Assembly (NCBI GenBank): GCA_017461395.1
Contig: JAFTYF010000014.1
Span: 1-52,811 of the forward strand
Direction: 5' to 3'
Length of the DNA: 52,811 nt
Origin: Ruminococcus sp.
GTDB lineage: Bacteria; Bacillota; Clostridia; Oscillospirales; Ruminococcaceae
Under the pieces are notes generated by a model. That model had not been told where the DNA came from and ran no database searches. It was given only the letters and a program-made list of their open reading frames with translations. Shown here piece after piece: positions 9,909-34,346 of this stretch. How positions within the stretch are numbered: position 1 is the first letter of the stretch; every line of letters begins with the position of its first letter. The translations under genes were made by a program, and so were the position numbers.

Positions 9909-10338
9909 TTATCTTCTTCTGCCGCAGTTTTTGTCAAATGAAGGATTGCAGGCGTAGAAATTCTTTGAATTGAGGTTATCCTGAGTGATGCGGAGAGCTT
10001 CACCGAAGCGCTGGAAATGAACTATCTCACGCTGTCTCAGGAACTTGATAGGATCCCGTACATCCGGATCGTCTGCTAACCTGAGAATATTGTCATAGGT
10101 GGTTCGTGCCTTCTGTTCTGCTGCCATATCTTCATGAAGATCAGTGATAATATCACCCTTGCTCTGGAAATACGTTGCTGTGAACGGTGCACCAGATGCG
10201 GCTATTGGATAAATTCCTGTAGTGTGATCTACAAAATAGGTGTCAAATCCGCTTGCTTTGATCTCATCAATGGTAAGATCTTTGGTCAGCTGATATAAGA
10301 TTGTGGATATCATCTCGACATGAGCAAGTTCTTCGGTG
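9909..10338 (-). pseudogene. cotJC: cotJC fragment 3 (C-terminal 142 codons), split by element 1
   Basis: Spore coat protein CotJC is a manganese-catalase-like ferritin-fold protein. This piece starts at TEELAHVEMI and keeps most of the expected metal ligands (E and H in EELAHVE, E in AAEQKAR, H in REIVHFQRFGEAL), plus a Cys- and Arg-containing tail. Upstream of TEEL the frame runs into element 1 (20 foreign codons back to an ATG at 10397) and homology stops exactly at the attachment core CC, 10339-10340. The missing N-terminal half lies at 23535-23697 and the first codons at 34329-34346. As it stands it should be inactive; joining the pieces gives 204 codons in frame. Confidence 0.9.
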
Positions 10339-10360
10339 CCTGCAGTGGATACTAATTTGC
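10339..10360. other. Left attachment site of element 1 (attL)
   Basis: Core CC (10339-10340), then ten bases, then ACTAATTTGC (10351-10360). The arm is the exact reverse complement of GCAAATTAGT at 23513-23522, which also lies ten bases from its own CC core. Everything left of the core is cotJC coding sequence. Confidence 0.85.
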
Positions 10361-10391
10361 CCCTCTGTTTGATTGAGTTTGCAATTTTCTG

Positions 10392-10420
10392 TTGCATGGT
10401 ATGCGATTTTATGGTATAAT
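10392..10420 (+). promoter_or_regulatory. Promoter of the Fic gene
   Basis: TTGCAT (10392-10397), 17-bp spacer, perfect TATAAT (10415-10420). It lies inside element 1, about 50 bp from its left core and 32 bp before the Fic start. Confidence 0.8.
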
Positions 10421-10451
10421 ATATTATGAAAGATAATGTGGGAGGTGTGAT

Positions 10452-11084
10452 ATGGCATTAGAGAATAAGCTCGGTATCACTAATTCAGCAGAGCTTGCAG
10501 ATGTAGAAGAACGCATCAGCAAGCAAAAGGCGGCTGAATTATTTGAAACAGGGTACTTAGATACGCTTGAAGCAGGCAGTTTCGCAGCACTTGCGGAGAT
10601 ACATCGTTATTTGTTTGAAGAAATATACGATTTTGCTGGAAAGCTCCGAACAATGAATATTGCAAAGGGAGGCTTTCGTTTTGCTCCTGTGATGTATCTG
10701 GCAGAGGCTTTGAAGTCCATCGAAAGAATGCCGCAGTCTACCTTTGAGGAGATAATCGCTAAGTATGTAGAGATGAACGTAGCTCATCCATTCCGTGAAG
10801 GTAATGGTCGCAGTACACGCATATGGCTTGATTGTATACTAAAGAAAGAACTGGGTATGGTTTTAGATTGGAGTGCTGTCGATAAGCAGGATTATCTTCT
10901 TGCAATGGAACGCAGTCCGATTAAAGATACTGAAATCAGTCTGCTGCTGAAAGAAGCCCTTACAGACAGGATTTCTGACCGAGAGATGTATATGAAAGGT
11001 ATTGACGCAAGCTATCACTATGAAGGGTATTCTGTGTATAAGACAGCAGACCTTTCTGACACCACTGATAAAAATAAGAGATAA
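10452..11084 (+). CDS. Fic/DOC family protein (protein AMP-transferase)
   Basis: A 210-residue Fic-domain protein. Fic enzymes move AMP (or related groups) from a nucleotide to hydroxyl side chains of target proteins. The catalytic motif [14 protein letters not shown] (about residues 115-128) is complete, with the His base and the GNGR phosphate-binding loop; the preceding helical core ([26 protein letters not shown]) supplies the flap. No separate antitoxin of the VbhA type is next to it; the N-terminal [16 protein letters not shown] helix might be self-inhibitory, which I cannot prove. GGGAGGTGTG precedes the ATG. It is the first gene of element 1, and such genes are common accessory cargo or stability modules. 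Confidence 0.9.
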
Positions 11085-11089
11085 AATTC

Positions 11090-11126
11090 AAAGCTCCTAC
11101 ATTTCATTTGAATTGTAGGAGCTTTC
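11090..11126 (+). terminator. Terminator of the Fic gene
   Basis: An 11-bp stem (AAAGCTCCTAC, 11090-11100, with GTAGGAGCTTT, 11115-11125) right after the Fic stop. Confidence 0.75.
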
Positions 11127-11250
11127 AGTTTTTAGCGGATTATCCCCTTGATGCAATATCATGTTGACTGCAAGAAAATTAGATTTGTTCAAGAAAATTT
11201 GTATTCTGAGTATGAACTGCAATTTTTGATATGTAGTATGTACCATGCAG

Positions 11251-11289
11251 AAAGCTGTATACCTTTAAGTTTTGGGTATACAGCTTTTA
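11251..11289. terminator. Terminator between the convergent Fic and XRE genes
   Basis: A 13-bp perfect stem (AAAGCTGTATACC, 11251-11263, with GGTATACAGCTTT, 11275-11287), seven bases from the 3' end of the minus-strand XRE gene. The T run is better on the plus side. Confidence 0.65.
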
Positions 11290-11295
11290 ATGGTT

Positions 11296-11994
11296 TTATG
11301 ACTGAGATTTGCAGAACTCTGACCACCAGCGTTCACGATCAAAGGCGGTCATGTTGTCCCATTCTTCTTCACGCCGCTCGATTTCATCATAAGACGCCCA
11401 ATCATCAACAGCTATGCAGTCATCACCGTTCTCATCTACACAGGAGAAGCAGTCATCTTCCAAGCCGTGATAGATGAATTTACGGCGGATAAACTTTTCA
11501 AAGGTCGGATAATCGACAAGCTGTCCTTTATGTGCTTTCATTCTGCCATAAGCATTGGCAAGCGTACCGACTACATTTTCGTAGTCACTGCGGTTTCGGT
11601 TGTCATACAACTCTGTAAGAACAGCGGTAAGTATTTTATCCTCGATTGTCAATGTTACAATATCCTCATCATCGTTTGAAGATACGGTAGTTTTAATGTG
11701 CTTTACCACATTGGCAAGCTCAGAAATAGTGTTATCCGAAAAGCCGGTGTCTTTCTTGCCGTTAGCAACGAGGTAATCAGTTGATACGTCGAAATAGTCG
11801 GCAAGCTTGCAGATTATTATAGCGGAAGGTACGCTTGTACCTGCGGCATAGCTGCGGAGAGTCTTTCCGTCAACGCCTATTTCTGTTGCAGCCTTGTTTA
11901 TGCTGACATTTTTAGCGGCGAGAAGGGTATTGAACTTTGAAGCGAAGTTCTTTTTCCATACAGTCTCGTCAATATCGTACTTATTATCGATCAT
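11296..11994 (-). CDS. XRE-family regulator with unknown C-terminal domain
   Basis: A 232-residue DNA-binding protein. The start at 11994 is preferred to 12000 because AAAGGAAG then lies at the right distance. The N-terminal XRE helix-turn-helix (about 12-70) reads FNTLLAAKNVSINKAATEIGVDGKTLRSYAAGTSVPSAIIICKLADYFDVSTDYLV. The middle and C-terminal parts are acidic (SSNDDEDIVTLTIED, then CVDENGDDCIAVDDW, then ERREEEWDNMTAFDRERWW) and unknown to me. Its own promoter (12131-12159) and a cluster of related palindromes (12019-12126) lie directly upstream, so it is probably self-regulating and may control the lifestyle of element 1. Confidence 0.85.
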   Translation of the reverse strand: MIDNKYDIDETVWKKNFASKFNTLLAAKNVSINKAATEIGVDGKTLRSYAAGTSVPSAIIICKLADYFDVSTDYLVANGKKDTGFSDNTISELANVVKHIKTTVSSNDDEDIVTLTIEDKILTAVLTELYDNRNRSDYENVVGTLANAYGRMKAHKGQLVDYPTFEKFIRRKFIYHGLEDDCFSCVDENGDDCIAVDDWASYDEIERREEEWDNMTAFDRERWWSEFCKSQS

Positions 11995-12017
11995 ATACAT
12001 CTTCCTTTCAGATAAGT

Positions 12018-12126
12018 TGGGAGTAAACTCTTGGAGTATACTCCATAGACATTTATGTTTGTCTGTGATAAAATATTGTTAATAGCAAGGTTGGGGATAA
12101 ACTCTTGACATTCGGGAGTCTATACC
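12018..12126. promoter_or_regulatory. Operator cluster upstream of the XRE gene
   Basis: A perfect 12-bp palindrome GGAGTATACTCC (12033-12044) has related sites GGGAGTAAACTC (12019-12030), GGGGATAAACTC (12093-12104) and GGGAGTCTATACC (12114-12126). The 17-base phrase TTGGGAGTAAACTCTTG recurs as TTGGGGATAAACTCTTG 73 bp on. All lie between the promoter and the start codon of the XRE gene. Confidence 0.65.
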
Positions 12127-12130
12127 TGAT

Positions 12131-12159
12131 ATTATAAGACAAAACACACGATTTGTCAA
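12131..12159 (-). promoter_or_regulatory. Consensus promoter of the XRE gene at 11296-11994
   Basis: On the minus strand TTGACA (12159-12154), 17-bp spacer, TATAAT (12136-12131), both perfect. The leader of about 130 nt is filled with the operator-like repeats. Confidence 0.85.
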
Positions 12160-12185
12160 TATTTATTTTGAAAGGATTGATTATA

Positions 12186-12662
12186 ATGGCACTTACCAGC
12201 AGAGGATTTTTACGACAACGATGTAACACGAAAGGAAGAAACAAGATGTGGAGTTTTTGCGAATAACACCCCTTCTTTTGTGAAAGTCATGATGATTTAG
12301 GAGCGTTTACTAATGGCTCAGAACGTGTACTCAAAGAATATAAATTTTATTATGTAATATTGTTTGAAAATAACTCTATAGGAAAAACGAATATTCTTGT
12401 CAGCACGGGATACGATATAAGACCTGTAATATGCTTTGAACAACGTCCTGAAGATTTATTCAAAAGTGTGTCATTCAGTGAATTTATTGATATGTTCGCA
12501 GGAAAATTCATCGGAGATATCAGCTCATATACAAATAATGAGCTGCGTGATGGTTATAAAATTCGAACGTATAGCTCAATGAATGATTTGTTACTTGAAA
12601 CAATCGGCGAGATGCAGAATTGCATCAACGATATAATGGTTGAACTGAGGACAAGAGAATAA
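12186..12662 (+). pseudogene. Broken small gene of unknown function
   Basis: ATG at 12186 follows AAAGGA and opens a frame that meets TAA at 12264-12266, then continues open in the same frame to 12662. The longest intact part from a TTG at 12360 is 100 residues (SFSEFIDMFAGKFIGDISSY, LLETIGEMQNCINDIMVELR). A second frame between about 12210 and 12300 also reads protein-like (DVTRKEETRCGVFANNTPSF), so a frameshift is possible too. I do not recognise a family. Either a decayed gene or one that starts at the internal TTG. Confidence 0.45.
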
Positions 12663-12674
12663 TTTTGTTGCTAA

Positions 12675-12709
12675 GAAAAAAAGACCTGCCTTTAATATCA
12701 AGACAGGTC
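12675..12709 (-). terminator. Terminator of the second XRE gene
   Basis: GACCTG (12683-12688) pairs with CAGGTC (12704-12709) with an inner CTT/AAG stem, followed on the minus strand by seven T. Confidence 0.75.
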
Positions 12710-12716
12710 GGTATCT

Positions 12717-13073
12717 CTATTCGGATATTTCGGGTAACTTCTTGTTTAATCCCATAAGGTATGCTTTAAGAAGTTCTTTGTCGTTATTGTTGAGATTACG
12801 ATACATGGCAATGACTTCACGCTCGGCATCATTGAGTATATCGGAAAGCTCGGTGACCGTTGTTTGCTCGTCAAAGAACTGCGTCAGGCTGATCTGAAGT
12901 CCGCTGCATATCTTTTCAAGCGTTATAACACTGGGAACGGTATTGCGGACGAAGATATTGTTCAGCGATGAGTACGCTAAATCCGCTTCTTTAGCAAGCC
13001 TGTATATAGTCCAGCCACGCTCATTAAGGAACTGTTGTATTCTGGTTAAGATGAAGTTCTTTTCTTGCTCCAT
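12717..13073 (-). CDS. XRE-family transcriptional regulator
   Basis: A 118-residue DNA-binding protein with an N-terminal XRE helix-turn-helix (about 8-63, FLNERGWTIYRLAKEADLAYSSLNNIFVRNTVPSVITLEKICSGL) and a short C-terminal helical part (DAEREVIAMYRNLNNNDKELLKAYLMGL) of the type seen in phage and ICE repressors. GAAAGGAGTATATC precedes the ATG. Repeats of ATGAGAA/TTCTCAT lie just upstream (13088-13172) and may be its operator. It is transcribed away from the small gene at 13632. Confidence 0.85.
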   Translation of the reverse strand: MEQEKNFILTRIQQFLNERGWTIYRLAKEADLAYSSLNNIFVRNTVPSVITLEKICSGLQISLTQFFDEQTTVTELSDILNDAEREVIAMYRNLNNNDKELLKAYLMGLNKKLPEISE

Positions 13074-13631
13074 GATATACTCCTTTCAATTTCTCATACT
13101 TATATTTTACTGCATTTTGAAACTTTTTAACAGATGAAGAAATGAGAATACTATACTGCTAAAATGAGAAATACGACGTTGCTCTGAATTGAAATGATTG
13201 TACTGGCTTTCATATGATATTATACTGCGCTGAATGAATATTCAACTATTTTGATTTGATGTGAATCTGATTTTGAATTTATTTTTATCTGTTTTGTAAA
13301 TAAGGCTGCTCTGAATTGGAAATGAGATTGACTGATAATACAGCGTGAGTTGCTTTCGGGGAGATGCCGTGAAAAGCCGGCTGTAGTAAGAGAAAGATAC
13401 TTTAAAGCGATACGTATTAATGATACTAAAAAGACATCAAGGCTTGTTTTTTGCCAAAACTACGCTGAAAATGGGCACTCTATGCAAATTTGAAATAATG
13501 ATAAAGCTGCCCTGCGATGATTTGTATCGGGACTTCTGGAATTGACTTTTGTAACAATTTGTTGAAGTGAGATTTGTTTGATTTGAAATAAGGTTTATCT
13601 GTTCCGGAAGGCGAATGAAAGGATTGATATT
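13074..13631. other. Gene-free regulatory stretch of element 1
   Basis: A 558-bp AT-rich gap without a convincing gene. It holds TTTCTCAT (13091-13098) facing ATGAGAAT (13142-13149) and ATGAGAAA (13164-13171), a likely XRE operator set, and two copies of GCTCTGAATTG about 130 bp apart (near 13181 and 13308). Nothing else is recognised. Confidence 0.45.
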
Positions 13632-13964
13632 GTGAAGCTGACAGATAGGAAGAATAAAATTCTTAAGCTTATTTATTTTCGCTCATATAGTGATTTCTCT
13701 TATAGCGTAAACGGAAATTTTAGCGTTGAAGTCGCAGAGTCGGATGAAACTTACACCGAGTTCTGGGTATCGGACGGTAAAGATAAAAGATGTGTGATGA
13801 TAGTCAAGCAAACATCACTCAGAGTGTTCCATGATGTGTCTCCTGAAGATTTACTGACTTGTATTATAGACAGGCTATTGGAGAGTTATGCTGTGAGTAA
13901 ATGCGAGAGCTTCGATAATCTGGAGATGATACTGATTAACATACTGCTACATAGAGTGATATGA
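13632..13964 (+). CDS. Small protein of unknown function
   Basis: A 110-residue frame that starts with GTG at 13632, eleven bases after AAAGGA. It is mixed alpha/beta with a FSVEVAESDETYTEFWVSDGKDKRCVMIV strand region and a helical C-terminus (SPEDLLTCIIDRLLESYAV). No membrane segment, signal or known motif. It lies in element 1 between the second XRE regulator and the SH3 lipoprotein. Function unknown. Confidence 0.6.
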   Translation: MKLTDRKNKILKLIYFRSYSDFSYSVNGNFSVEVAESDETYTEFWVSDGKDKRCVMIVKQTSLRVFHDVSPEDLLTCIIDRLLESYAVSKCESFDNLEMILINILLHRVI

Positions 13965-13967
13965 TGC

Positions 13968-13996
13968 TTGACAAAACTACCACAATGAGTTATAAT
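13968..13996 (+). promoter_or_regulatory. Consensus promoter of the SH3 lipoprotein gene
   Basis: Perfect TTGACA (13968-13973) and TATAAT (13991-13996) with a 17-bp spacer, 45 bp before the start codon. Confidence 0.88.
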
Positions 13997-14040
13997 TATA
14001 ATGTCGAGTTATGATGATTTTAAGAAAAGGTGGTTTTATT

Positions 14041-15489
14041 ATGAAAAGATTAACTGCACTGCTTACTGTGTCTTTGATGACGGCATCGATGTTTACAGGG
14101 TGTGGAGATTCTGATAATAATTCAGAAAGTGATATTGCTTCTGAGAGAAGTAGCCTGTCAGACACAAAGCCCGATAACAGCACAAAGGAGAAAATGAGTG
14201 AAGAAGAAACATCCGTTGTTGTTACAGAAGCTGAGCCTATCAATTTAGAAGATACTGTGAAGTCGGAGCTCGATTTATATGAAGATATCCTGAAAAATCC
14301 AAATGCACATACTGCTATAATTGATCCTGATTCACGGAATTATACCAGTTATACCTATTGCATTGCAGATATAAACGATGACGGTAAGTACGAACTTGTA
14401 CTCAAGAGTGAAAATAAAGAGGGGAGCTATGATCCCTATGGCGTACTCACGGTTGTTAAAGCAGACGGTAAAGTTTATAAGTGGGAATTTTCCAATACTC
14501 CTGAATTCTATGCAAACGGAATAGTTGGCTATAGTCATGTGTCAACACATTTTACGCAGAGCTTTTTAGATATTAACTCGGGTGATATGTGGAACGCATA
14601 TACCGATTATGGACACGAAACTGCGGTGAGAGTAATTGAAAACATCGTAACAGGCGAGATTATTGAAGGCAGCACAGAGAACGAAAAAGAAAAACAGCTT
14701 TCTTCTGGTGCTGTCATTAAACCTAAATGGACTGCTTATAGCTGGTATGATGCCGAAGATATGGAGATAGTCGTATCAGAGAAGAAAGATATAGAGTATT
14801 CGTGGGAAAATGCTTATCTTGAAATAATTAATACTGAAAACGAATATGATTCACTTTCTGAATATGCTTTAATATATCTTGATAAGGATGACATTCCCGA
14901 ACTTTATGTAGATTGCGGAAAATTTTCCGACATGGGGCGGCTATATAGCTTTCACAATGGTAAGCTGATTACAGATACTGATTTCAATGATGGAGGCTAC
15001 AAGCTTGAATACTATGTGGAAAAGACAGGCAAATTATGCGGAAGAATAATTCCTATTGGCGGTTTACATATGATATTCCAAGAGTATAATGATGGCGAGT
15101 TTAAGACTATTATAAAATCAAGCAACCTTGGACACGAAGACTGGGATGCATCTATTAATGATATTGCGGTTAGTGAGGAAGAATACACTGCGCAGATAAA
15201 TGCTGTAAATGAAAGTGATCGTGCAACACCTTTAAGTTTAAAAAGCTATCAGGATATTATGCTTGAATTTTATAATAGTGATGATAATACTACAGAAGGT
15301 ATTGTTATCACAGAAAATGATGCGCTTAATGTAAGAACTTCACCGTCAGTAGATGCGCCTGTAATTGGACAAGTACCGAAAGGGGATGTTGTACATATTA
15401 CAGGAGAGGATGGCGACTGGTATAAAATAAGATTTGGCTCAGAAATCGGGTATGTATCGAAGGAGTATGTTGCTTTGACAATAGAATAA
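14041..15489 (+). CDS. Lipoprotein with C-terminal SH3 domain
   Basis: A 482-residue exported protein; the start at 14041 follows AAAGGTGG. The signal sequence ends in the lipobox FTGC (Cys at about 21), followed by an acidic Ser-rich linker, a central region with two repeats of a calcium-type or FG-GAP-like motif (ADINDDGKYELVLKSE and YLDKDDIPELYVDCG, about 105 and 280), and a bacterial SH3 domain at the end (about 420-480, LNVRTSPSVDAPVIGQVPKG, DWYKIRF, GYVSKEYV), which usually binds cell-wall peptide. Likely a wall-associated surface protein carried by element 1. Role unknown. Confidence 0.8.
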   Translation: MKRLTALLTVSLMTASMFTGCGDSDNNSESDIASERSSLSDTKPDNSTKEKMSEEETSVVVTEAEPINLEDTVKSELDLYEDILKNPNAHTAIIDPDSRNYTSYTYCIADINDDGKYELVLKSENKEGSYDPYGVLTVVKADGKVYKWEFSNTPEFYANGIVGYSHVSTHFTQSFLDINSGDMWNAYTDYGHETAVRVIENIVTGEIIEGSTENEKEKQLSSGAVIKPKWTAYSWYDAEDMEIVVSEKKDIEYSWENAYLEIINTENEYDSLSEYALIYLDKDDIPELYVDCGKFSDMGRLYSFHNGKLITDTDFNDGGYKLEYYVEKTGKLCGRIIPIGGLHMIFQEYNDGEFKTIIKSSNLGHEDWDASINDIAVSEEEYTAQINAVNESDRATPLSLKSYQDIMLEFYNSDDNTTEGIVITENDALNVRTSPSVDAPVIGQVPKGDVVHITGEDGDWYKIRFGSEIGYVSKEYVALTIE

Positions 15490-15540
15490 GCAAATGCTGT
15501 ATTGCTTTTCATGGAGATATGATAGAAAGGATAAATACAT

Positions 15541-16476
15541 ATGTTTTGCAAAAAGTGTGGAAATCAATTGAACGAAGGCAGTGCTTTCTGTGGTAAGTGC
15601 GGTGCACAGATTGGCAATAACAATGCAAGTCAGCAGCCGTCTGCTATGGATGCCTTCATAAAAAAGCTGAATACCCCTATAGGTAACAGTAAGTCTGCAA
15701 GAAAACCGTCTAAACAAATTCAGCCAGCGGCTAAATCGCCATTCTCGTCTAAGTTGCGTAATTTGGTTCTTCATTACAGCAGACATATCATATTTGTGTT
15801 GCAGATTCTGACTTGTGGCTGGATATTGGGTATGATGGATAGCTCGGTAGAATATCATTTAAAAGATATCGGCTTAGATCCACGAGTTATGTTTAATATA
15901 TCGGTTTTTACAGCTATAGCGATAATACTGCTGTCAATGGGATATAACCTTAAAAATAGAAACAAGGAGCAGCATTATTGCCCTAAGTGCAAAAAAGAGG
16001 CTATACATAATAAATATGGAGTGTGTACAGACTGCTATCTTGATACATCAGCTAATAATATAATGTTTCTCTTTTTCTTTGTATTAACCTATGCGTTCTA
16101 TGTAGGATCAAGATTCGTAAATGAGTTTGATGTTTTTTTCATTTTGGCATTTGCTCTGATCAGTATGGGCTTGTCAGTCATCTACCCGATTTATATGTAT
16201 CCTGCTAAGCTTGCCAGACGTACAGGTCATGTAGCGGCAACAGCTATCTATGTGCTTAATCTTTTGCTCGGAGGTACTGTTATTCTCTGGATTGTTCTTC
16301 TTATCTGGGCAAGCGGCGGAAACGGTAATAAGAGAGAGGTTATAATACAGGCACCTGCAGAAGCTCAGAAGTCATCACAGGAAAAATTCGCAGAAATCAA
16401 ACAGCTTCTGGATATGGGAGTAATTACTCAGGAAGAATTTGATGAAAAGCGTAAGGAAATTCTGTCTAAAATATAA
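15541..16476 (+). CDS. Zinc-ribbon membrane protein with SHOCT tail
   Basis: A 311-residue protein. It opens with a zinc ribbon (CKKCGNQLNEGSAFCGKCG, residues 3-21), has a second CxxC pair pattern in the middle (CPKCKKEAIHN...CTDCY), about five hydrophobic membrane segments (for example IIFVLQILTCGWILGMM, NIMFLFFFVLTYAFYVG, AATAIYVLNLLLGGTVILWIVLLIW), and ends in a SHOCT-type helix pair (FAEIKQLLDMGVITQEEFDEKRKEIL). GAAAGGATAAATAC precedes the ATG, and it follows the lipoprotein gene by 51 bp, so the two may be cotranscribed. Function unknown. Confidence 0.8.
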   Translation: MFCKKCGNQLNEGSAFCGKCGAQIGNNNASQQPSAMDAFIKKLNTPIGNSKSARKPSKQIQPAAKSPFSSKLRNLVLHYSRHIIFVLQILTCGWILGMMDSSVEYHLKDIGLDPRVMFNISVFTAIAIILLSMGYNLKNRNKEQHYCPKCKKEAIHNKYGVCTDCYLDTSANNIMFLFFFVLTYAFYVGSRFVNEFDVFFILAFALISMGLSVIYPIYMYPAKLARRTGHVAATAIYVLNLLLGGTVILWIVLLIWASGGNGNKREVIIQAPAEAQKSSQEKFAEIKQLLDMGVITQEEFDEKRKEILSKI

Positions 16477-16520
16477 TGCTGCATTCGCGTATGCGAATAA
16501 TACGTCGTGCAGTGCAACAC

Positions 16521-16548
16521 AGCCCGTCCATTTGATAGTGAACGGGCT
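16521..16548. other. Hairpin between convergent genes
   Basis: AGCCCGT (16521-16527) pairs with ACGGGCT (16542-16548), with extra CA/TG pairs inside. No clear T run, so a weak terminator at best between the zinc-ribbon gene and the methyltransferase gene. Confidence 0.4.
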
Positions 16549-16575
16549 GGTTGTACTTAAAGGTGTAAATAGCGT

Positions 16576-17967
16576 TCAGAACGCCGTACATCCAGGAAAC
16601 CAAAAGTTCGTTATAAATACTTCAATAGTTCCTTTATTATCAAATGGAACCTCAATGTAATAGAATTGCTTGCCAGCCTTTTTAGCTTCGGATCCATAAT
16701 ACATGAAGTAAAATCCGGAGATTTTTGCATCTTTTACTGCGTAAAAACCATTGGCTTCATCGTTTCGTACATCTTCATGAGTCTTTTCTTTGGAACGCTG
16801 ACGTGTAGCTGTAAAACGACAGCTTAGCACAAACTTGCATTTGTCGTAGTTTTTCTTGGCAAACTCAAATAGGTTTAAATGATCGTTTTTTTTAAACTCC
16901 TTAAGACCATTGTTGGGGTTCGTATAACCCCATGTTTTTATGTAAGGTGGATCAAGATATACTAAAGTACATGGTGAAAGTGGTTCATTGAGCAAGGAAA
17001 GGGCGTCAGAATGAATGAAGTTTACCTTCCGAAGCATTTCATTATAGTCAGAAATGCAGTTAATATGATTGGCAAAAAGATTAGCTTGCTGTTCTGCGCT
17101 TAAATGCTTATCTTTATTTTTTATTAGATTTTGTCCTTTAGAGTGAACGCTGACAACGTTCCGGTAGAGGAAGATAGCAGCTTCGATATAATCACAGTTT
17201 TTAGCCGTAATTTTATCTGGGAGATTAATGCTTTGTTTTTTTAAGACATCAAAGTTGTCATAACCGCCAATAATGCTTAATGCAAGTAATAGACAAGCTG
17301 ATTTTAATTCATTTGGCTTTTCACGCACGCAAAAATATAGATTGCATTTTTCCTTATCCGCATCTCCAAGTGTGTAGCTTTTAGGATCGTTTCCTATAGC
17401 TGATAGAATAGTTTTTGTAGCGGCACATGCACCAGCAAATGGCTCTATTATACTGTTGGTCTGAGAAGCATTTACTATGTCGTAAAGTATCGTACTCATT
17501 ATAGGGGCAGATTTATTGCCGTGAACATTTAGTAAATTCTTTGATTTGCTGAATTTCACATTGTAACACTTTATAAAATGTTGAGCATTATACCAATACT
17601 CTAAACCTAAGGCAATAAGAAGCATTGCAACCTTGGCTTCAGGAATTTTGTGTTTATCAGCAATCATAAATATAATCATGGCTACGCATGAGTTGACACG
17701 TATTGAAAGTATTGCATCTGATCTTGCAGAACCTTCATTTTTATGAAATGTTGCTGGATTAATAATATATACACTTGTATACAGTGCATATATAGCAGAA
17801 TTGTATTTTTCCACTCCGTCATTGTAAAGATTTACATACACCTGAGACGGCAACCCCAAAACAAGATTATTAAAATAATCTGATGCTGTCATATGGGCTT
17901 GGGCAGCATTATGGACAATAATGCTTTTAGCTTCTGTTCCTATTTCATAATTCTTCTTAGTTGTCAT
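16576..17967 (-). CDS. D12-class adenine-specific DNA methyltransferase with extra N-terminal domain
   Basis: A 463-residue protein. Residues about 150-463 form a D12 (Dam-like) N6-adenine methyltransferase: NVHGNKSAPIM near the start, the SAM-binding IIEPFAGACAATK, and the catalytic YLDPPYIKTWGY (about 335-345). The first 150 residues (EAKSIIVHNAAQAHMTASDYF, then a helical MIADKHKIPEAKVAMLLIALGLEYW) are not part of usual D12 enzymes and are unknown to me. No restriction endonuclease is adjacent, so it is an orphan that may protect or mark element 1. AAAGGAGGATATTATTT precedes the start. Confidence 0.85.
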   Translation of the reverse strand: MTTKKNYEIGTEAKSIIVHNAAQAHMTASDYFNNLVLGLPSQVYVNLYNDGVEKYNSAIYALYTSVYIINPATFHKNEGSARSDAILSIRVNSCVAMIIFMIADKHKIPEAKVAMLLIALGLEYWYNAQHFIKCYNVKFSKSKNLLNVHGNKSAPIMSTILYDIVNASQTNSIIEPFAGACAATKTILSAIGNDPKSYTLGDADKEKCNLYFCVREKPNELKSACLLLALSIIGGYDNFDVLKKQSINLPDKITAKNCDYIEAAIFLYRNVVSVHSKGQNLIKNKDKHLSAEQQANLFANHINCISDYNEMLRKVNFIHSDALSLLNEPLSPCTLVYLDPPYIKTWGYTNPNNGLKEFKKNDHLNLFEFAKKNYDKCKFVLSCRFTATRQRSKEKTHEDVRNDEANGFYAVKDAKISGFYFMYYGSEAKKAGKQFYYIEVPFDNKGTIEVFITNFWFPGCTAF

Positions 17968-23445: not shown

Positions 23446-23449
23446 AAAC

Positions 23450-27507: not shown

Positions 27508-27556
27508 TTCTCAAAATCGGTCAGCGGTGTTATAATGATATTGACCGATACGGTCA
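27508..27556 (+). promoter_or_regulatory. Promoter and operator of the TetR-hydrolase operon
   Basis: TTCTCA (27508-27513), 17-bp spacer, TATAAT (27531-27536). A palindrome TGACCG-ATA-CGGTCA (27542-27556) lies just past the -10 and a further half site CGGTCA (27518-27523) between -35 and -10, fitting self-repression by the TetR protein. Confidence 0.75.
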
Positions 27557-27573
27557 GAAAGGAGTGAGAGAAC

Positions 27574-28185
27574 TTGAATGAACGGTTTTACGCACTTCCC
27601 GAAGATAAGCGAAACAGCATCATAAGTGCAGGATTCCGTGTCTTCTCACAATACAGCTACAAGAACAGTCCTATGAGCGAAATAGCTGCCGAGGCAGGCA
27701 TCAGCAAGTCGCTGCTGTTTTACTATTTCAAGAATAAAAAGGAATTGTATCTGTTTCTTTGCAGGTACAGTGCAGAGCTGACAGAGCAGGAAATGATAAG
27801 GCAAAAATGCTATGAGAAAGAAGATTTCTTTGATATTTTCCTCAGCGGTCTGAAAGTCAAGGTACAGCTTATGCGGCAATATCCCGATCTTTCGCTGTTT
27901 CAGCTAAAAGCATACTATGAAAAGGACAAATCACTTCGCCCGGATATCAATCAGCTTATCGGACAATATTCGGGGTATGAAAATCAGTCGGAAATGCTGA
28001 AGCTGGATAAGGAACAATTCATTGAGGGACTTGACCTTGAGATGATGTATACAGATATGTTTTTGGCATCACAAGGCTATTTATGGAAAAAACTGCAAAG
28101 TGATACAATAGATCCCGATCAGATGGAAAAGGACTTTATCAGAATGATCGAGTTCTGGCGGAGTCTCTATTCACGCAGAAAATGA
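27574..28185 (+). CDS. TetR/AcrR-family transcriptional regulator
   Basis: A 203-residue regulator. It starts with TTG at 27574 after GGAGTGAGAG; the nearby ATG at 27578 is in another frame. The N-terminal helix-turn-helix (about 8-55) reads KRNSIISAGFRVFSQYSYKN, then MSEIAAEAGISKSLLFYYFK, the classic TetR pattern; the rest is the helical ligand-binding domain. It is followed 13 bp on by an alpha/beta hydrolase gene and preceded by a palindromic operator, so it most likely represses this two-gene operon until a ligand, perhaps a substrate of the hydrolase, is present. Confidence 0.92.
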   Translation: MNERFYALPEDKRNSIISAGFRVFSQYSYKNSPMSEIAAEAGISKSLLFYYFKNKKELYLFLCRYSAELTEQEMIRQKCYEKEDFFDIFLSGLKVKVQLMRQYPDLSLFQLKAYYEKDKSLRPDINQLIGQYSGYENQSEMLKLDKEQFIEGLDLEMMYTDMFLASQGYLWKKLQSDTIDPDQMEKDFIRMIEFWRSLYSRRK

Positions 28186-28198
28186 AAAAGGTGACAAT

Positions 28199-28996
28199 AT
28201 GTATAACTCTGAAAATAAAACGGTAATGCTCCCGTCAGAAGCTGAGATGTACTATGCAAAATTCGGCAAGGGAAGCAAACTGTTAGCCATGATTCCCGGA
28301 CTAAATATCGTAGATATGAGTGGAACGGCGAATAACCTTGCGTATTTTTATCGCAAATTCGCAAAGGATTTTACTGTCTATGTTTTCGACAGACGAAAAG
28401 GTCGTGATCCTGGCTGTACGCTCCGTTCTATGGCAGAGGATGTTGCGGCTGCTATGAAAACGCTGAACATCAATCAGGCGTATGTAGTAGGGGTGTCACA
28501 GGGTGGAATGATCGCACAGTACCTCGCAGCAAAACACCATGAACTCGTAAAAAGGCTGGTGCTGGGTGTTACAGCAGCAAAAACAAATCCTCTTATGATA
28601 AGTGCAGTAGATGACTGGCTCGCTATGGCGGAAAACGACGATCTTCAAGGTGTTCTCACTCAAAGTTACGATAAGATGTATACCGAAAAACAGATGGAAC
28701 TGTACCGCAGGCTGATACCTCTTATTATGAAGTTCACGAAGTTTATGGAGATAGAACGCTTTGCAGATCATGCAAGGGCAATCTATACGCTTGACAGTTT
28801 CGATATTCTTGACAGGATAAAATGTCCGACGCTTGTTCTTGGTGCAGAACTGGACAAAATAACCACTGCCGAGGGCTCAAAAGAAATAGCGGAGAAACTC
28901 GGTTGCAAGCTCCATATATTCCCGAATGAGGGACACGCAGCTTATCTCAGCAAGGGCTTCAATTGTATGGTATACGATTTTTTTACAGAAGAATGA
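28199..28996 (+). CDS. Alpha/beta hydrolase
   Basis: A 265-residue cytosolic alpha/beta-fold hydrolase. The nucleophile elbow GVSQGGM (Ser about 99), an acid in LVLGAELDKIT (Asp about 221) and a His in NEGHAAY (about 245) form the triad; the oxyanion strand is LLAMIPGLNIVDMS. A helical cap lies between (about 125-195). Size and motifs fit esterases and peroxidase-type hydrolases; the substrate is unknown. AAAAGGTGACAAT precedes the ATG, and it is in one operon with TetR. Confidence 0.9.
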   Translation: MYNSENKTVMLPSEAEMYYAKFGKGSKLLAMIPGLNIVDMSGTANNLAYFYRKFAKDFTVYVFDRRKGRDPGCTLRSMAEDVAAAMKTLNINQAYVVGVSQGGMIAQYLAAKHHELVKRLVLGVTAAKTNPLMISAVDDWLAMAENDDLQGVLTQSYDKMYTEKQMELYRRLIPLIMKFTKFMEIERFADHARAIYTLDSFDILDRIKCPTLVLGAELDKITTAEGSKEIAEKLGCKLHIFPNEGHAAYLSKGFNCMVYDFFTEE

Positions 28997-29069
28997 TCAA
29001 GCATTTTGATGTGTTTATCGAAAGATATTGCATTAACAAATAACTGATATGCCAGATATAAAAAGCGCT

Positions 29070-29665
29070 GAATATTCAACAATTCCTCTGTTGTTTACGG
29101 AAAAGGATATAATGAAATCAGTTTTTATCTGGGAATACAGCATATGCAGTTTTACGGTATAGATATAACAGTTGACGAATTCATTGATCTGCACATTCCA
29201 ATCTCTGATTATCCGTATTATGAAGATGACGTGATGTATGGCGGAAATCCGTGGGATGCGTTTATCGGTGATCCGTATTCTGATTCGGGCTACGGATGCT
29301 ATTCTACAGCTGTTGTCAAGGCTATGATATCTGCCGTGCCGGATGATTACGAGATAAGAGCGGTTTATAATCTTCCGTTGTCTGTTTTTTGCGAGCAATA
29401 CATTGATAAGGGAATTCCTGTGATGATATGGGCTACAATGGAAATGAAAAAGCCATACGGGGGGAATAGCTGGATTCTTCCTGACGGCAGAACTTTCACC
29501 TTCATAAGTCCGGAACACGCTTTGATATTGATAGGATATGACGATTCCAATTATTATTTCTGCAATTCTCAGTCGGATGAGAAAGTAGTTTCTTACCCTA
29601 AAACAGACTGCGAAACAGCTTATAATGCGATGTATCGTCAGGCAGTAGCTATATTACCTGTCTGA
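29070..29665 (+). pseudogene. C39-like peptidase, N-terminally truncated and without its Cys
   Basis: The longest ATG frame (29144-29665) gives 173 residues: QFYGIDITVDEFIDLHIP, GYGCYSTAVVKAMIS, then FISPEHALILIGYDD and YYFCNSQSD, matching the second half of a Peptidase_C39_2 domain with its His and Asp/Asn. The preceding open sequence reads GYNEISFYLGIQHMQ where an active enzyme has a G-C-E-x-T segment, so the catalytic Cys is lost, and no start or signal peptide is present. A degenerate relic of a cell-wall or processing protease. Confidence 0.65.
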
Positions 29666-29700
29666 TAAAATCAGCCGCAGAATTATAAAACGATTCTACG

Positions 29701-29961
29701 GAGATCAATGTTGAATTGGCGCTCTTTAAGCTGAAAAATATTATTGGCTGTGAAAGACTTCTTCTCGAAGGCGGAAGTATTATCAATGGTGCATTTCAGC
29801 GTGCGGATGTCATTGACGAGCTGAGTCTTGTTGTCATACCTGTTACAGCGGATAAAGAGGATAAGCCGTTGTTTATGGACGGTAAGCTGTCTGATTTTGA
29901 GGTTTTGAGTGCGTAAAGCATTGACGGGAATGTTGTAATGAGATATAAGAGAATGGATTGA
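29701..29961 (+). pseudogene. RibD-C/dihydrofolate-reductase-type fragment with nonsense codon
   Basis: The frame ERLLLEGGSIINGAFQRADV, then IDELSLVVIPVTADKED, then PLFMDGKLSDFEVLSA stops at TAA 29914-29916, but continues in frame as SIDGNVVMRYKRMD to a TGA at 29959. This is the C-terminal third of a RibD_C reductase domain (GGSIINGAF is the NADPH-loop region). The N-terminal part is missing. Truncated and interrupted, so not functional. Confidence 0.65.
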
Positions 29962-30048
29962 AGTAAATAGTTTTGTTGCTGTAAACGACAAACTTTTTCT
30001 TTGAGGATAGCTTTTCAAACTTTTCTGCATTTATTTACATCAAAACCA

Positions 30049-30092
30049 TTGACATTATAAACTGCATTTGCTATAATAAATGAATAGCAAAT
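30049..30092 (+). promoter_or_regulatory. Promoter with overlapping operator of the XRE-UGD fusion gene
   Basis: Perfect TTGACA (30049-30054) and TATAAT (30072-30077), 17-bp spacer. A perfect 9-bp inverted repeat ATTTGCTAT (30066-30074) with ATAGCAAAT (30084-30092) straddles the -10 and the likely start of transcription, a natural place for a repressor. A second small hairpin GTTGCT-GAC-AGCAAC follows in the leader. Confidence 0.8.
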
Positions 30093-30136
30093 TCAGTTTT
30101 TGTGTTGCTGACAGCAACAGATTTCAGGAGGCAGTT

Positions 30137-31627
30137 ATGAAACATTTATCATTGAATAAACTTGCCGAAACAGTGGCAAGCAGAAGAAAGACACTCGGAA
30201 TTTCTCAGGCAGCTCTTTCAGAAAGCACAGGAATCAACCGTTCAATTTTATCAAGACTTGAAGCAGAGGACTATTCTCCCTCTGTTGACCAGCTCCTTGC
30301 ATTGTCTGAGGTTCTTGATTTCAACTATGCAGATTTATTTGAGGATGATAAAGTGGAAGTCAGCGCAGTTGAGCGCAAGAAGATCGCTGTTGCCGGAACA
30401 GGTTATGTAGGATTGTCTCTGGCAGTACTCCTTTCACAGCATAACGATGTAACTGCTGTTGATATTGTTCCTGAAAAGGTGGAAAAGCTGAATAACTGGA
30501 TTTCTCCCATTCAGGATGACTACATCGAAAAATATCTTGCAGAGCATGAGGAGAGAAAGCTTTCCTTTACAGCAACAACAGATGCAGAATCTGCATACAA
30601 GGACGCTGATTTCATTATTGTGGCAGCTCCTACAAACTACGATCCCAAGACAAATTTTTTTGACTGTTCGGCTGTTGAGAGCGTTTTATCTCTTATCAAA
30701 TCAGTTACAGACGGCAGAGAGATAAAGCCTACAGTTGTTATCAAGTCAACAATTCCTGTAGGATATACTGTTCAGGTGCGTGAAAAACTTGGCATGGACA
30801 ACATCATTTTCAGTCCAGAGTTTCTTCGTGAAAGCAAGGCTCTTTACGATAATCTCTATCCAAGCCGTATTATTGTCGGTTCAGATGAGGATAACAAGGA
30901 GCAGGCTGAAATATTTGCTTCACTTCTCAGACAGGGCGCAGTCAAGACTGATATTCCTGTGCTGTTTATGGATACTACAGAAGCTGAGGCAACAAAGCTT
31001 TTTGTCAACACATATCTTGCTCTCCGTGTAAGCTACTTCAACGAGCTTGACACATATGCAGAGCTTAAAAATCTGGATACAGCAAGCATTATCAAGGGAG
31101 TGTGCCTTGATCCCCGTGTGGGGGATTACTATAACAATCCCAGCTTCGGATATGGCGGATACTGTCTGCCTAAGGATACAAAGCAGCTTCTTGCAAATTA
31201 TCAGGATGTTCCGCAGAATATGATCACTGCTATTGTGGAATCAAACCGTACACGTAAGGACTTCATTGCTGACCGTGTGCTTGAAAAGGCAGGATATTAC
31301 AGCTACAGCGGAAACAACGACTGGAACGCTGACTTCGAAAAAAATATTGTTGTGGGTGTATACCGACTTACAATGAAGTCAAATAGTGACAACTTCCGTC
31401 AGTCCTCTATTCAGGGCGTAATGAAGCGTATCAAGGCTAAGGGTGCTGCTATTATAATCTATGAGCCTACACTCAAAGACGGCGAGACTTTCTTCGGAAG
31501 TGTAGTGGTTAATAATATGAAGAAATTCAAGTCTCAGTGTGATGCTATTATCGCAAATCGTTATGATTCCTGTCTTAATGATGTTGCTGATAAGGTGTAC
31601 ACAAGAGATATTTTCAGAAGAGATTAA
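30137..31627 (+). CDS. UDP-glucose 6-dehydrogenase with N-terminal XRE DNA-binding domain
   Basis: A 496-residue fusion. Start at 30137 after AGGAGGCAGTT; transcription begins near 30084, so an upstream in-frame ATG at 30080 is excluded. Residues about 6-66 are a complete XRE helix-turn-helix ([40 protein letters not shown]). Residues about 80-496 are a nucleotide-sugar dehydrogenase: [20 protein letters not shown] (NAD loop), [19 protein letters not shown], and the catalytic Cys in [11 protein letters not shown], then ESNRTRKDF. It oxidises UDP-glucose (or a related sugar) to the uronate, usually for capsule or exopolysaccharide. The fusion suggests an enzyme that also regulates its own promoter, which has a matching palindrome. 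Confidence 0.93.
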
Positions 31628-31789
31628 TTGTTTCATGGCATAACAAGTGCTTCGCTGCGGCGGAGCATAATTTTTTTTACTTAAAATACGGAATGTGATA
31701 TAATATTCATGTTGAATACATGATACTACAAGGAGTAGTATAAAAAGAAAGTTCATAACGAAAAAATTTAATAAATTTCTTCTCATTTC

Positions 31790-31818
31790 TTGACCTGCTC
31801 AAATTTATCTGCTATAAT
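31790..31818 (+). promoter_or_regulatory. Promoter upstream of the chimeric recombinase frame
   Basis: TTGACC (31790-31795), 17-bp spacer, TATAAT (31813-31818). It was probably the original recombinase promoter and now reads first into the duplicated copy. Confidence 0.75.
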
Positions 31819-31830
31819 CTAAGTAGAAAA

Positions 31831-32016
31831 GCAGATACATTGAAATCCAAGGGGTGATACAATGAAAGAATACTGTATGTACCTGCGAAAGTCAAGAGCA
31901 GACGTAGAAGCTGAAGCACGTGGAGAGGGGGAGCCCCTCTCTCTTTATCAGAATATGTTTCTGGAAGTTGCTAAACGTCAGAAGCTTAACGTTGTGAAGA
32001 TAATTAAGGAAATTGA
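31831..32016 (+). repeat. Direct repeat, copy 1 (recombinase start region)
   Basis: About 186 bp nearly identical to 32804-32989: leader GCAGATACATTGAAATCC, ribosome site AGGGGTGATACA, and the first 50 codons of the recombinase. Offset is 973 bp. Confidence 0.85.
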
Positions 32017-32728
32017 TGTTGTGTGTGAATTCTTGAAAATAATCATTTTTATATTATTTTCATTAATATTGTGCAGTTTTTTTCAAAATCCCGTTTATGC
32101 TGAGGCGGGTTTTGATATGTCTGAAATCAGCGCAGATGATTTATCTCAATCATTTATTGAGTCGATTGAAAAGTCTGATAAAGAAATAATGGGAGAAAAC
32201 TTACGAAATTTCGATGTTTCAAGTGAAGGGAATACAATTGTTTGCTTAAAAAACAAAGGAATAAATATATATGATTCAAATTTAGTTTTTAAGTATAGTA
32301 TCTCGTATAACGTGGACGGTTCATCTATTGCTTTTTGGATTAATGAAAATCCGGCTATTTACCTGGATAGAGGAGATTTGATTGTTGTTTTCTCAAATGA
32401 AGGTGAAATATTAAACGTTTATAATGCCGCAAACACTGTAGAAAATGGCAAATTATATCGTCATATTACAGATGCGGATAAAGAAGATGAAGCCTTTATG
32501 TATTCCATGACATTTTCATCAAAGGCTCAAAAGTTTTATTGCTCAGATTACACAAAGCTCATCCGAAAGGAAAAGAGCACAGGAACTACAGAAATAATTT
32601 ATGAGAATACAGATGCAAATTCTAAAGCGTTACTTATGGTTATTGTAGTAATGCTTGTTATTGTTTTTATAGGTTTTATTATAAGGTCTATCTGGAAAAG
32701 TCATCATAAGCATATATGTGAAACTTAA
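31862..32728 (+). CDS. Chimeric frame: recombinase N-terminus fused to a membrane-anchored protein
   Basis: A 288-residue open frame. Residues 1-50 duplicate the start of the recombinase at 32835 (MKEYCMYLRKSRADVEAEAR then GEGEPLS), including the RKS catalytic Ser. At about residue 52 the sequence switches to an unrelated exported protein: hydrophobic signal (LKIIIFILFSLILCSFF), NPVYAEA cleavage-like site, a beta-rich outer domain (FDVSSEGNTIVCLKNKGINI, AIYLDRGDLIVVFSNEGEIL) and a C-terminal membrane helix (LLMVIVVMLVIVFIGFIIRS). A GTG near 32020 after AAGGAAATTG could start the exported protein on its own. The recombinase part cannot be active; this is a cargo gene inserted behind a duplicated gene start. 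Confidence 0.65.
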   Translation: MKEYCMYLRKSRADVEAEARGEGEPLSLYQNMFLEVAKRQKLNVVKIIKEIDVVCEFLKIIIFILFSLILCSFFQNPVYAEAGFDMSEISADDLSQSFIESIEKSDKEIMGENLRNFDVSSEGNTIVCLKNKGINIYDSNLVFKYSISYNVDGSSIAFWINENPAIYLDRGDLIVVFSNEGEILNVYNAANTVENGKLYRHITDADKEDEAFMYSMTFSSKAQKFYCSDYTKLIRKEKSTGTTEIIYENTDANSKALLMVIVVMLVIVFIGFIIRSIWKSHHKHICET

Positions 32729-32803
32729 TCAGACGCGTGGAAATAAGGATTAGTATGTATAAGAGTTTTGATGAGTAGAAATGTTAATAACCTAATCAAA
32801 AAA

Positions 32804-32989
32804 GCAGATACATTGAAATCCGAGGGGTGATACAATGAAAGAATACTGTATGTACCTGCGAAAATCAAGAGCAGATGTAGAAGCTGAAGCGCGTGGAGAG
32901 GGGGAGACCCTCTCCCGTCATCAGAATATGCTTCTTGAACTTGCTAAACGTCAGAAGCTGAACATTGTTAAGATATATAAGGAAATCGT
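32804..32989 (+). repeat. Direct repeat, copy 2 (recombinase start region)
   Basis: The second copy of the 186-bp repeat, now the 5' end of the intact recombinase. No promoter of comparable strength is seen directly before it. Confidence 0.85.
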
Positions 32990-34298
32990 CAGCGGCGACA
33001 GCATTGCCGCTCGTCCGCAGATGCAGGCTTTGCTTGCAGATGTTACCGAGGGCAGGTATGCGGGCGTGCTTGTAGTCGAGATAGAGCGTCTTGCGAGAGG
33101 TGATACCATAGATCAGGGTATCGTTGCTCAGGCTTTTCGTGACTCATCAACGAAGATAGTCACTCCGACGAAAACTTATGATCCCGATAACGAGTTCGAC
33201 GAAGAATATTTTGAGTTCTCGTTGTTTATGAGCCGCCGTGAGTACAAGACTATCAAGCGCCGTATGCAAGCCGGCAGACTTGCTTCCATTAAAGAAGGAA
33301 ATTACATAAGCACAACAGCTCCTTATGGTTACAGAAAAATCAATCCCGCGCCAAAGGTTCATACTCTTGAAATAATTCCGGAGGAAGCAGAAATCGTCAG
33401 GCTGATATACAAGCTTTATCTTGACGGTCACGGAGCGAAATACATTGCCAACGAGCTTAACCGTATGGGAATCAGTCCGCAGAAAAGTCAATTCTGGGAA
33501 TATCCAAGTATAAAAAAGATACTTGCAAATCCTCTGTATTGCGGAAAAGTTGGCTGGAAAACAAAATCAAACGGCGACACGCTGTACAAGGGGCTTCATG
33601 AGCCTATAGTCAGTGAGGAAACTTTTGATGCTGTTCAGAACAAGAAAAAAATAAATCCGGCGGCACAGCTCCACCCGAATGACACACTGCTGAATTACTA
33701 TCACAATGTCCTTTACTGTGCAAATTGCGGACATCAGCTGAGACGCAGAGTAATCGCAAACAGCGGTCACGAGTATATGCTCTGTACTCACAGAGAATGT
33801 CGTGGAAAGATAGTCAGCTCCACTATTGAGTCTGTTGACGAGGCTGCACTTTCTGCCTTCCGATATCGCATAAAACAGCTCGAAAAGCTGAAAAGAAGCG
33901 GTAATACAAAGCTGCAAAACGAACCCGACAAAAAAGCTCCGCTTATTGCAGAGCTTGAAAAGTCCAGACGACAGCTTTTAAGATTGTATGATCTTCTGGA
34001 GCAAGAGGTATATGACATAAATACTTTCCTTGAACGTTCCGGTATAGTCAACGAGAAGATACGTTCTCTTGAAGCTGCTATAGAAGAATTAGACAGCGAA
34101 CAGAAACTTCCGAAGCTTGCTCCTGATGAAGCTATAAGACGCCTTCAATATGTTATAGATAACTTTGCAGATTCAGATCCTGAAGAAAAAAACAGACTGC
34201 TGCAGACGGTTGTGAGAAAACTGTACTACAACAAAACTCAAAGAATGTGCAAAAATAAAACGGATTCAGATCTTACTCTGAGTGCGGATTTTTTATAA
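32835..34298 (+). CDS. Large serine recombinase of element 2
   Basis: A 487-residue large serine recombinase with AGGGGTGATACA before the ATG. Resolvase domain (1-150): MYLRKSRADVEAEARGEGET with the nucleophile Ser in RKS, VSGDSIAARPQMQALL, EIERLARGDTIDQG. Recombinase domain (about 160-270): APYGYRKINP, YLDGHGAKYIANELNRMGI, VGWKTKSNGDTLYKGLHEPI. Zinc ribbon (CANCGHQL...CTHREC, about 297-320) and coiled coil (about 340-420). It ends 29 bp from the right core of element 2, in the same orientation as the recombinase of element 1 relative to its site. Intact, so excision in trans or cis is possible. Confidence 0.95.
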   Translation: MKEYCMYLRKSRADVEAEARGEGETLSRHQNMLLELAKRQKLNIVKIYKEIVSGDSIAARPQMQALLADVTEGRYAGVLVVEIERLARGDTIDQGIVAQAFRDSSTKIVTPTKTYDPDNEFDEEYFEFSLFMSRREYKTIKRRMQAGRLASIKEGNYISTTAPYGYRKINPAPKVHTLEIIPEEAEIVRLIYKLYLDGHGAKYIANELNRMGISPQKSQFWEYPSIKKILANPLYCGKVGWKTKSNGDTLYKGLHEPIVSEETFDAVQNKKKINPAAQLHPNDTLLNYYHNVLYCANCGHQLRRRVIANSGHEYMLCTHRECRGKIVSSTIESVDEAALSAFRYRIKQLEKLKRSGNTKLQNEPDKKAPLIAELEKSRRQLLRLYDLLEQEVYDINTFLERSGIVNEKIRSLEAAIEELDSEQKLPKLAPDEAIRRLQYVIDNFADSDPEEKNRLLQTVVRKLYYNKTQRMCKNKTDSDLTLSADFL

Positions 34299-34303
34299 GG
34301 CAT

Positions 34304-34328
34304 ATGTACAACAAAGATATTATAATTT
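34304..34328. other. Right attachment site of element 2 (attR)
   Basis: Arm ATGTACAAC (34304-34312), then AAAGATATTA and the shared TAATTT (34323-34328; deduced core TT 34327-34328). To the right the sequence is cotJC codons 1-6. Confidence 0.8.
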
Positions 34329-34346
34329 TTTCTCATACTGCCACAT
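34320..34346 (-). pseudogene. cotJC: cotJC fragment 1 (start codon and codons 2-8)
   Basis: ATG at 34346 follows GGAAAGGAGATAATTT and lies three bases after the cotJB stop, the normal operon position. It reads MWQYEKKL, the typical CotJC start, then meets TAA (34322-34320) inside element 2. With element 2 removed it continues directly as QYPVNIKNPN at 23697. As found, only an eight-residue peptide can be made. Confidence 0.9.

Follow-up and report, generated by a model that had tools for sequence, protein, structure and literature searches.

A 52,811-nucleotide stretch of DNA from Ruminococcus sp. (contig JAFTYF010000014.1, hereafter the window, which belongs to a 2.08-Mb draft genome of 80 contigs) carries the spore coat gene cotJC in three in-frame pieces separated by two mobile elements, each with its own large serine recombinase (LSR). 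The gene is the last of cotJABC and codes for a protein of the manganese catalase type. Comparisons with related genomes make it likely that cotJC is a docking gene that is restored when several elements are precisely excised, probably in the mother cell. At least six sites within its 615 nucleotides would each act as the bacterial attachment site (attB) for one LSR clade, offering phages and islands a multi-site dock, and the window has element B at site 1 together with element A at site 3a. The three pieces lie on the minus strand after cotJA and cotJB, as follows.

34595..34891, minus strand: cotJA (Pfam CotJA, 1.5e-18), given as the listed open reading frame (ORF), whose true start is probably internal
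34350..34598, minus strand: cotJB, uninterrupted (Pfam CotJB, 3.1e-32), with the gene end at 34350
34323..34346, minus strand: cotJC piece 1, 24 nucleotides, codons 1-8, including the left AAATTA core copy (34323-34328)
23694..34322: element B, site 1 (codon 7), ~10.6 kb, with the right AAATTA copy at its end
32835..34298, plus strand: LSR of element B, 487 amino acids, site-1 clade (Pfam PF00239 and PF07508; tree)
23533..23699, minus strand: cotJC piece 2, codons ~7-62, with a core copy at each end
10339..23532: element A, site 3a (codon 62, core GG), ~13.2 kb
21859..23445, plus strand: LSR of element A, 528 amino acids, site-3a clade (Pfam PF00239, PF07508 and PF13408; tree)
9909..10340, minus strand: cotJC piece 3, the last 142 codons and the stop, including the right GG core copy (10339-10340)

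An earlier reading of the window (the original prediction) had described three in-frame pieces amounting to 615 nucleotides and 204 codons, and joining them indeed yields 615 nucleotides with one open frame of 204 amino acids. It had also foreseen EKKLQYPV and TDIGTEELAH at the two joints. Among 18 correctly extracted intact CotJC proteins (loci L028 and L032 were left out), 16 read MWQYEKKLQYPV at joint 1, the other two differing by one or two residues, and all 18 read TDIGTEELAH at joint 2, as the rejoined gene predicts. A core of 2 base pairs had been proposed for each joint, which is correct for joint 2 (GG), but at joint 1 the shared core is six bases long (AAATTA, 34328-34323 and 23699-23694). 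Both LSRs are intact, as claimed, and their 3′ ends face the upstream cotJC piece, with stop codons 24 base pairs (element B) and 87 base pairs (element A) from the cores rather than 29 and 88.

The two enzymes have the build of LSR integrases, with a Resolvase and then a Recombinase domain in about 450-550 amino acids, and fit PHROG integrase family 95. The elements themselves have the properties of gene-intervening elements, in that a short core splits an ORF, removal restores the frame, and each brings its own recombinase. In the minus-strand reading, element B has inverted arms, GTTGTACAT (34312-34304) and ATGTACAAC (23722-23714), and these arms together with the AAA core are similar to an undivided phage attachment site (attP) in viral locus L219.

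LSRs recombine attB with attP, and a directionality factor lets them run the reaction backwards (PMC5595907). In the window, each LSR would recombine its own attL and attR, so that both elements would leave precisely and cotJC would be restored. Removal of both should restore the gene because two independent reactions are involved that use different cores and LSRs of different clades. We infer that the elements are excised in this host, both from one and the same cell, whenever cotJC is required, with the mother cell of sporulating cells as the most likely place. The mother-cell genome is discarded, and residence would therefore be cheap for element and host.

A profile search of the host assembly with the Mn_catalase family matches only the cotJC pieces, indicating that this assembly has no whole cotJC paralogue to serve as a backup. 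Five residues (E35, E65, H68, E136 and H169), which we take to match the five manganese ligands of manganese catalases, are conserved in the CotJC alignment and are distributed across pieces 2 and 3. Thus, no single piece should be a catalase.

Breaks were compared in a genus set of 125 Ruminococcus genomes, including R. flavefaciens; some genomes are incomplete, which limits the counts of whole and split genes. The breaks recur at six sites.

Site 1: codon 7, core AAA
Site 2: codons 30-31, core GGNGG
Site 3a: codon 62, core GG
Site 3b: codons 64-65, core GAGGA-like
Site 4: around codon 133-136, a position taken from protein matches alone
Site 5: codons ~172-175

Thirty-five junction pairs were compared and 30 were usable (anchor placement spoiled G107 site 1, G104, G041, G046 and G052), and all 30 keep the register and show recurrent cores. 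A tree of 57 junction LSRs from 45 genomes, three of whose members (G041, G072 and G093) had been labelled beforehand only as ‘site 3’, resolves into six clades, one per site, with no mixing. For sites 1, 2, 3a, 3b, 4 and 5, respectively, these clades have 21, 10, 8, 11, 3 and 4 members and support values of 0.71, 1.0, 1.0, 0.99, 1.0 and 1.0. Of 14 additional LSRs taken from other genera, all from sites 2, 4 and 5 except the second site-2 clade described below, along with five from site 3, joined the clades of their own site, and the clades of sites 2, 3a, 4 and 5 retain their site among the out-of-genus genomes sampled. None of seven further host-genome LSRs belongs to a site clade, although two adjoin that of site 3a.

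Dozens of genomes are broken at these same points by an LSR of the clade that matches the site, which excludes chance, and the separate cores and clades lead us to reject a single tolerant site. The earlier suggestion of two parasites sharing one tolerant target was partly right: the elements are mobile, and element B has moved recently, but the target consists of separate LSR-specific sites. No special DNA conservation was seen at these sites (0.80-0.85 versus 0.81 for the whole gene). The 3′ end of the LSR faces a junction (G051 is an exception), beside either the upstream or the downstream piece, and both layouts occur within sites 1, 2 and 3b. Close LSR pairs located at opposite element ends relative to cotJC (L017/L108, L047/L037 and L126/L051, for sites 1, 2 and 3b) imply that either attP or the entire element has flipped.

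The joined CotJC protein matches 104 of the 125 genus genomes, and 20 of the 125 hold the gene in one piece (codon 1 to at least codon 200, with cotJB directly upstream). An LSR lies at a cotJC break in at least 51 of 125 genomes (45 plus six more), the DNA of the break region having been examined for many of the non-intact genomes. The 45 have an LSR ORF beside the break or, for some site-1 cases, right after cotJB with room for a 7-codon piece only; a few such ORFs are truncated where the locus or contig ends. The six additional cases are at site 1 (G030, G121, G115 and G071) and site 2 (G042 and G066), and G030 and G115 are without a cotJC match in the protein search. Partial LSRs are found at contig or locus ends in G037, G119 and G090.

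LSRs mark two or more sites in 10 of the 45 genomes (that of the window, G005, G014, G015, G022, G041, G062, G081, G093 and G107). The presence of two elements in one coat gene, which had been singled out in the window, holds, but it is not a one-off: the window exemplifies a pattern of six sites that runs through the genus and partly through the class, in which one gene can have as many as three LSR-marked breaks. Three such breaks occur within one 11.3-kb stretch of G107, where one resident is 1.5 kb, little beyond an LSR, and the final cotJC piece reaches only to codon 175, where site 5 lies. In R. flavefaciens FD-1, 007c and YAD2003, cotJC matches end at codon 178-184, the match in MA2007 starts at codon 3, and cotJC of YL228 is whole.

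Beyond the genus, 90 of 128 genomes in the family set match, many as pieces that end near the same positions, and 98 of 148 match in the class set, these being counts of matches, whole or split. Splits within single contigs or megabase contigs outside the genus were found in G240, G137, G275, G386 and G287; breaks at site 2 as well as site 3 are present in each of G275 and G386. In the single contig of G287 (C1:2541492-2698809), the cotJC pieces are 157 kb apart, which is an unusually large resident. In G052 (L101), cotJB and the cotJC 3′ piece stand head to head about 500 base pairs apart, an arrangement that suggests an inversion at the break. A second partial cotJC copy is found beside an intact one in G044 (C24) and G122 (C52), representing either contamination or a real second locus.

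Two genes served as controls. cotJB is present in 104 of 125 genomes as a single piece, except in G098 and G027 where it is cut at contig ends. The spore marker SpoIVA is present in 121 of 125, and none is split by insertion, the oddities being two overlapping adjoining pieces in G096 and pieces on two contigs in G103. General gene breakage in draft genomes was rejected on these grounds.

The split genes bear the signature of purifying selection. A stop-free frame is found in 46 of 48 stitched split cotJC genes; the others have stops at codons 77-78, beyond the joint (G019), and at codon 172, at the joint (G001). The ratio of nonsynonymous to synonymous divergence (dN/dS) was computed by NG86 between nearest neighbours for split genes with at least 140 codons (n=46) and for intact genes (n=20). 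Split genes have a median of 0.043 against the nearest split gene and 0.040 against the nearest gene of any kind (largest 0.118), and the corresponding values for intact genes are 0.048 and 0.046 (largest 0.115). Between G022 and G058, both split, there are 0 nonsynonymous versus 27 synonymous changes, and other close pairs give 8.3 versus 51.7 (G014-G001) and 4 versus 39 (G012-G074, the latter taken as split from a piece that starts at codon 4). By this indirect measure at the level of the genus, split cotJC shows strong purifying selection equal to that on intact cotJC.

The residents are mobile. The DNA of the element-B LSR is 96.2% identical between the window and G041, whereas the two cotJC genes are only 77.5% identical, which indicates that element B moved recently between species. 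In G022, the residents of site 2 (33 kb) and site 3b (35 kb) are prophages, the former with terminase, major head and tape measure protein genes, and the latter with terminase, portal, protease, major head protein and endolysin genes. Relatives of the LSRs were found in IMG/VR loci for site 1 (n=10), site 3a (n=4), site 2 (n=31) and site 3b (n=5), and the site-5 query returned no relatives in this database.

We examined 40 of these viral loci, comprising the four best for site 1 and 36 for sites 2 and 3b. In 15 of them, an undivided attP-like dyad surrounds the matching core directly after the LSR, without cotJC (13 for site 2, L313 for site 3b and L219 for site 1). One of the 13 site-2 viral LSRs is identical to that of G022, and the L313 LSR is 97% identical to its G022 counterpart. 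A cotJC piece follows the LSR in seven of the 40 loci, and the remaining 18 end at the LSR, are partial or lack a clear dyad. Thus, both the integrated and the undivided-attP states are on record for the LSR clades of sites 1, 2 and 3b.

A sigma factor gene of sigE/sigK type is split around codon 109-125 in four genomes noted among 60, in a search where no match, split or whole, reached the cut-off of the family itself. The pieces are 5.5-8.4 kb apart in G041 (C13:257478-266628), G009 (C1:417043-423270) and G044 (C60:23063-29257), and lie on two contigs in G004, pointing to skin-like elements in the genus. In a promoter scan with sigE and sigK consensus sequences, sigK-like matches occur in 80% of the 600-base-pair regions upstream of cotJB (88 loci) versus 40% of first-order random resamples, and sigE-like matches in 1% versus 3%. 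Upstream of the LSRs the picture is mixed, with sigE-like matches of at least 10/11 in 7 of 50 regions versus 2.4% of resamples, and sigK-like matches in 36% versus 30%. Excision would most likely be timed to the mother cell, given the coat role of CotJ, the near-universal presence of SpoIVA, the split sigma gene and the published precedents.

The elements could instead be plain parasites of a dispensable gene, with split cotJC dead or unimportant and no programmed rejoining, although we consider this improbable. Such parasitism would agree with the complete prophages among the residents, with the recent move of element B, and with the descriptions in PMC12122855 and PMC11222575 that B. subtilis and C. 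difficile lacking CotJC or a homologue have no strong coat phenotype. However, the dN/dS of split genes equals that of intact genes, the pieces of the 48 split genes show no internal decay, register is kept in the 30 usable junction pairs, and the pieces persist even though 10 of 45 genomes have two or three LSR-marked breaks.

A different account accepts real excision as ordinary prophage or island induction by DNA damage or oxygen, which would yield a small rejoined vegetative fraction that is not timed to sporulation. The undivided attP sites in viral contigs demonstrate that the clades include phages not residing in cotJC, and a protein of the catalase family could serve in oxygen stress. 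We nevertheless find this account unlikely, as two to three independent excisions per cell would be rare by chance induction, the residents include non-phage islands and very short elements, and the spore marker is nearly universal in the genus. It is very improbable that the pieces are used as separate, assembling polypeptides without DNA rejoining. Piece 3 is readable as its own 162-codon ORF and piece 2 lies within a 115-codon ORF, but piece 1 has only 7-8 codons, and break positions vary between species while the full-length sequence is conserved. The 80 contigs of the draft genome might raise the concern of an assembly or binning artefact, a possibility we regard as practically negligible. 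It is refuted by same-position breaks inside megabase contigs and single-contig genomes (G009, G240, G275, G386 and G287), and the LSRs beside the junctions match their site.

Several observations weigh against cotJC as a docking gene rebuilt in the mother cell. Many of the other nearest-neighbour synonymous divergence (dS) values exceed 1, and so the selection signal may be partly older than the splitting. The match of clade to site has exceptions, including a second, separate site-2 LSR clade in G275 and G386, one interior LSR of G275, and an LSR of G287 that lies at a break near codon 61-67 but falls in the tree with those of site 1. The site-1 LSR of G019 is broken into two ORFs. The viral relatives of the element-A LSR are distant (best 45%), and the exact attP sites of elements A and B gave no matches in the viral contigs. 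Spores of B. subtilis without the protein are described as free of apparent defects in PMC12122855. The double excision originally proposed has indirect support from the joints, the frame, the purifying selection and the undivided attP of the site-1 clade and two others, whereas rejoined cotJC patterns have no matches in the assembly of the window.

A broader proposal is that cotJC is a harbour across the class Clostridia, where at least six LSR lineages use separate sites, at least three elements can be present at once, and their removal proceeds in parallel in the mother cell. This process would be like programmed somatic DNA elimination and would function as a multi-input AND gate. We consider this extension about as likely as not.

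The remaining annotated features of elements B and A are as follows.

31862..32728, plus strand, element B: ORF opening with a near-copy of the N-terminus of the element-B LSR (~50 codons), followed by other sequence
30080..31627, plus strand, element B: helix-turn-helix and UDP-glucose/GDP-mannose dehydrogenase
29144..29665, plus strand, element B: C39-like peptidase
27574..28996, plus strand, element B: TetR regulator and alpha/beta hydrolase
24426..26444, plus strand, element B: leucine-rich-repeat protein with dockerin
20877..21623, plus strand, element A: small serine resolvase, upstream of the LSR
16576..17967, minus strand, element A: D12-type DNA adenine methyltransferase
15541..16476, plus strand, element A: superinfection-immunity-like domain protein
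10452..11084, plus strand, element A: Fic/Doc-family protein

The stretch at 31862-32728 is extra and is absent from the related G041 element, which points to a local duplication or insertion. A related small resolvase likewise lies upstream of the site-3a LSR in G116 and G083. Dockerin proteins occur in element B and among 2 of 27 proteins of the set L047/L048/L219/L218 (cotJC elements or relatives), and they possibly represent cellulosome cargo of cotJC elements. Elements A and B have no terminase, portal, capsid or tail genes among the ORFs scanned (23 by Pfam, 20 by PHROGs), and no relaxase or conjugation genes among the 23 ORFs scanned by Pfam, which do not cover every small ORF. We therefore reject these elements as prophages or conjugative elements on the ORFs scanned; element A does carry phage-type repressors in addition to its superinfection-immunity-like protein. 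The host genome has nine further LSR places beyond the window (G000 C17, C21, C24, C35, C40, C41, C43, C51 and C61), and no split sporulation gene was recognised 3′ of these by inspection by eye only.

Split cotJC could explain why the gene looks truncated or missing in many genomes. More generally, the findings suggest that phages have a safe harbour in genes that serve only a doomed cell type, and the cotJC sites offer natural sets of matched LSRs with attB/attP pairs. If our proposal is true, the spores of split strains should contain full-length CotJC while the spore chromosome keeps the split gene. No description of an interrupted cotJC was found in the literature searched, whose scope mostly left out subscription papers and preprints, and an earlier report is possible.

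Precedents are known for other genes. A close comparison is gin in gerE of Bacillus cereus ATCC10987 (PMC5595907), where an island free of phage genes splits a small sporulation gene with a short overlap at the joint, carries serine recombinases and, upon rejoining, restores the gene. However, gin is one element at one site whose excision was demonstrated experimentally, whereas cotJC has six sites used by several LSR clades in the genus and beyond, often has two or three breaks, and is proposed to undergo excision on indirect evidence. The skin element in sigK of B. subtilis and C. difficile (PMC5025042, PMC3789829) likewise makes a mother-cell gene dependent on excision, but in a different gene with one site, whereas cotJC hosts several elements, each with its own LSR. 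SPbeta in spsM (PMC4191935) is an active prophage in a spore-envelope gene, which is rebuilt by its removal at sporulation, comparable to the cotJC prophages of G022, although it involves one phage at one site rather than a shared docking gene. Similarly, yin is a prophage-like segment within the sporulation gene yabG of Clostridium botulinum (PMC10747680), yet it is a single element in another gene. The attR of phi027 in C. difficile R20291 adjoins a CotJC-like gene (PMC11222575, PMC12122855), but this phage is described as lying beside the gene and not inside it, unlike the cotJC elements. Thus, the precedents compared consist of one element in one gene, whereas cotJC presents a 615-nucleotide array of target sites for several recombinase lineages that spans many Clostridia, including uncultured gut and rumen species.

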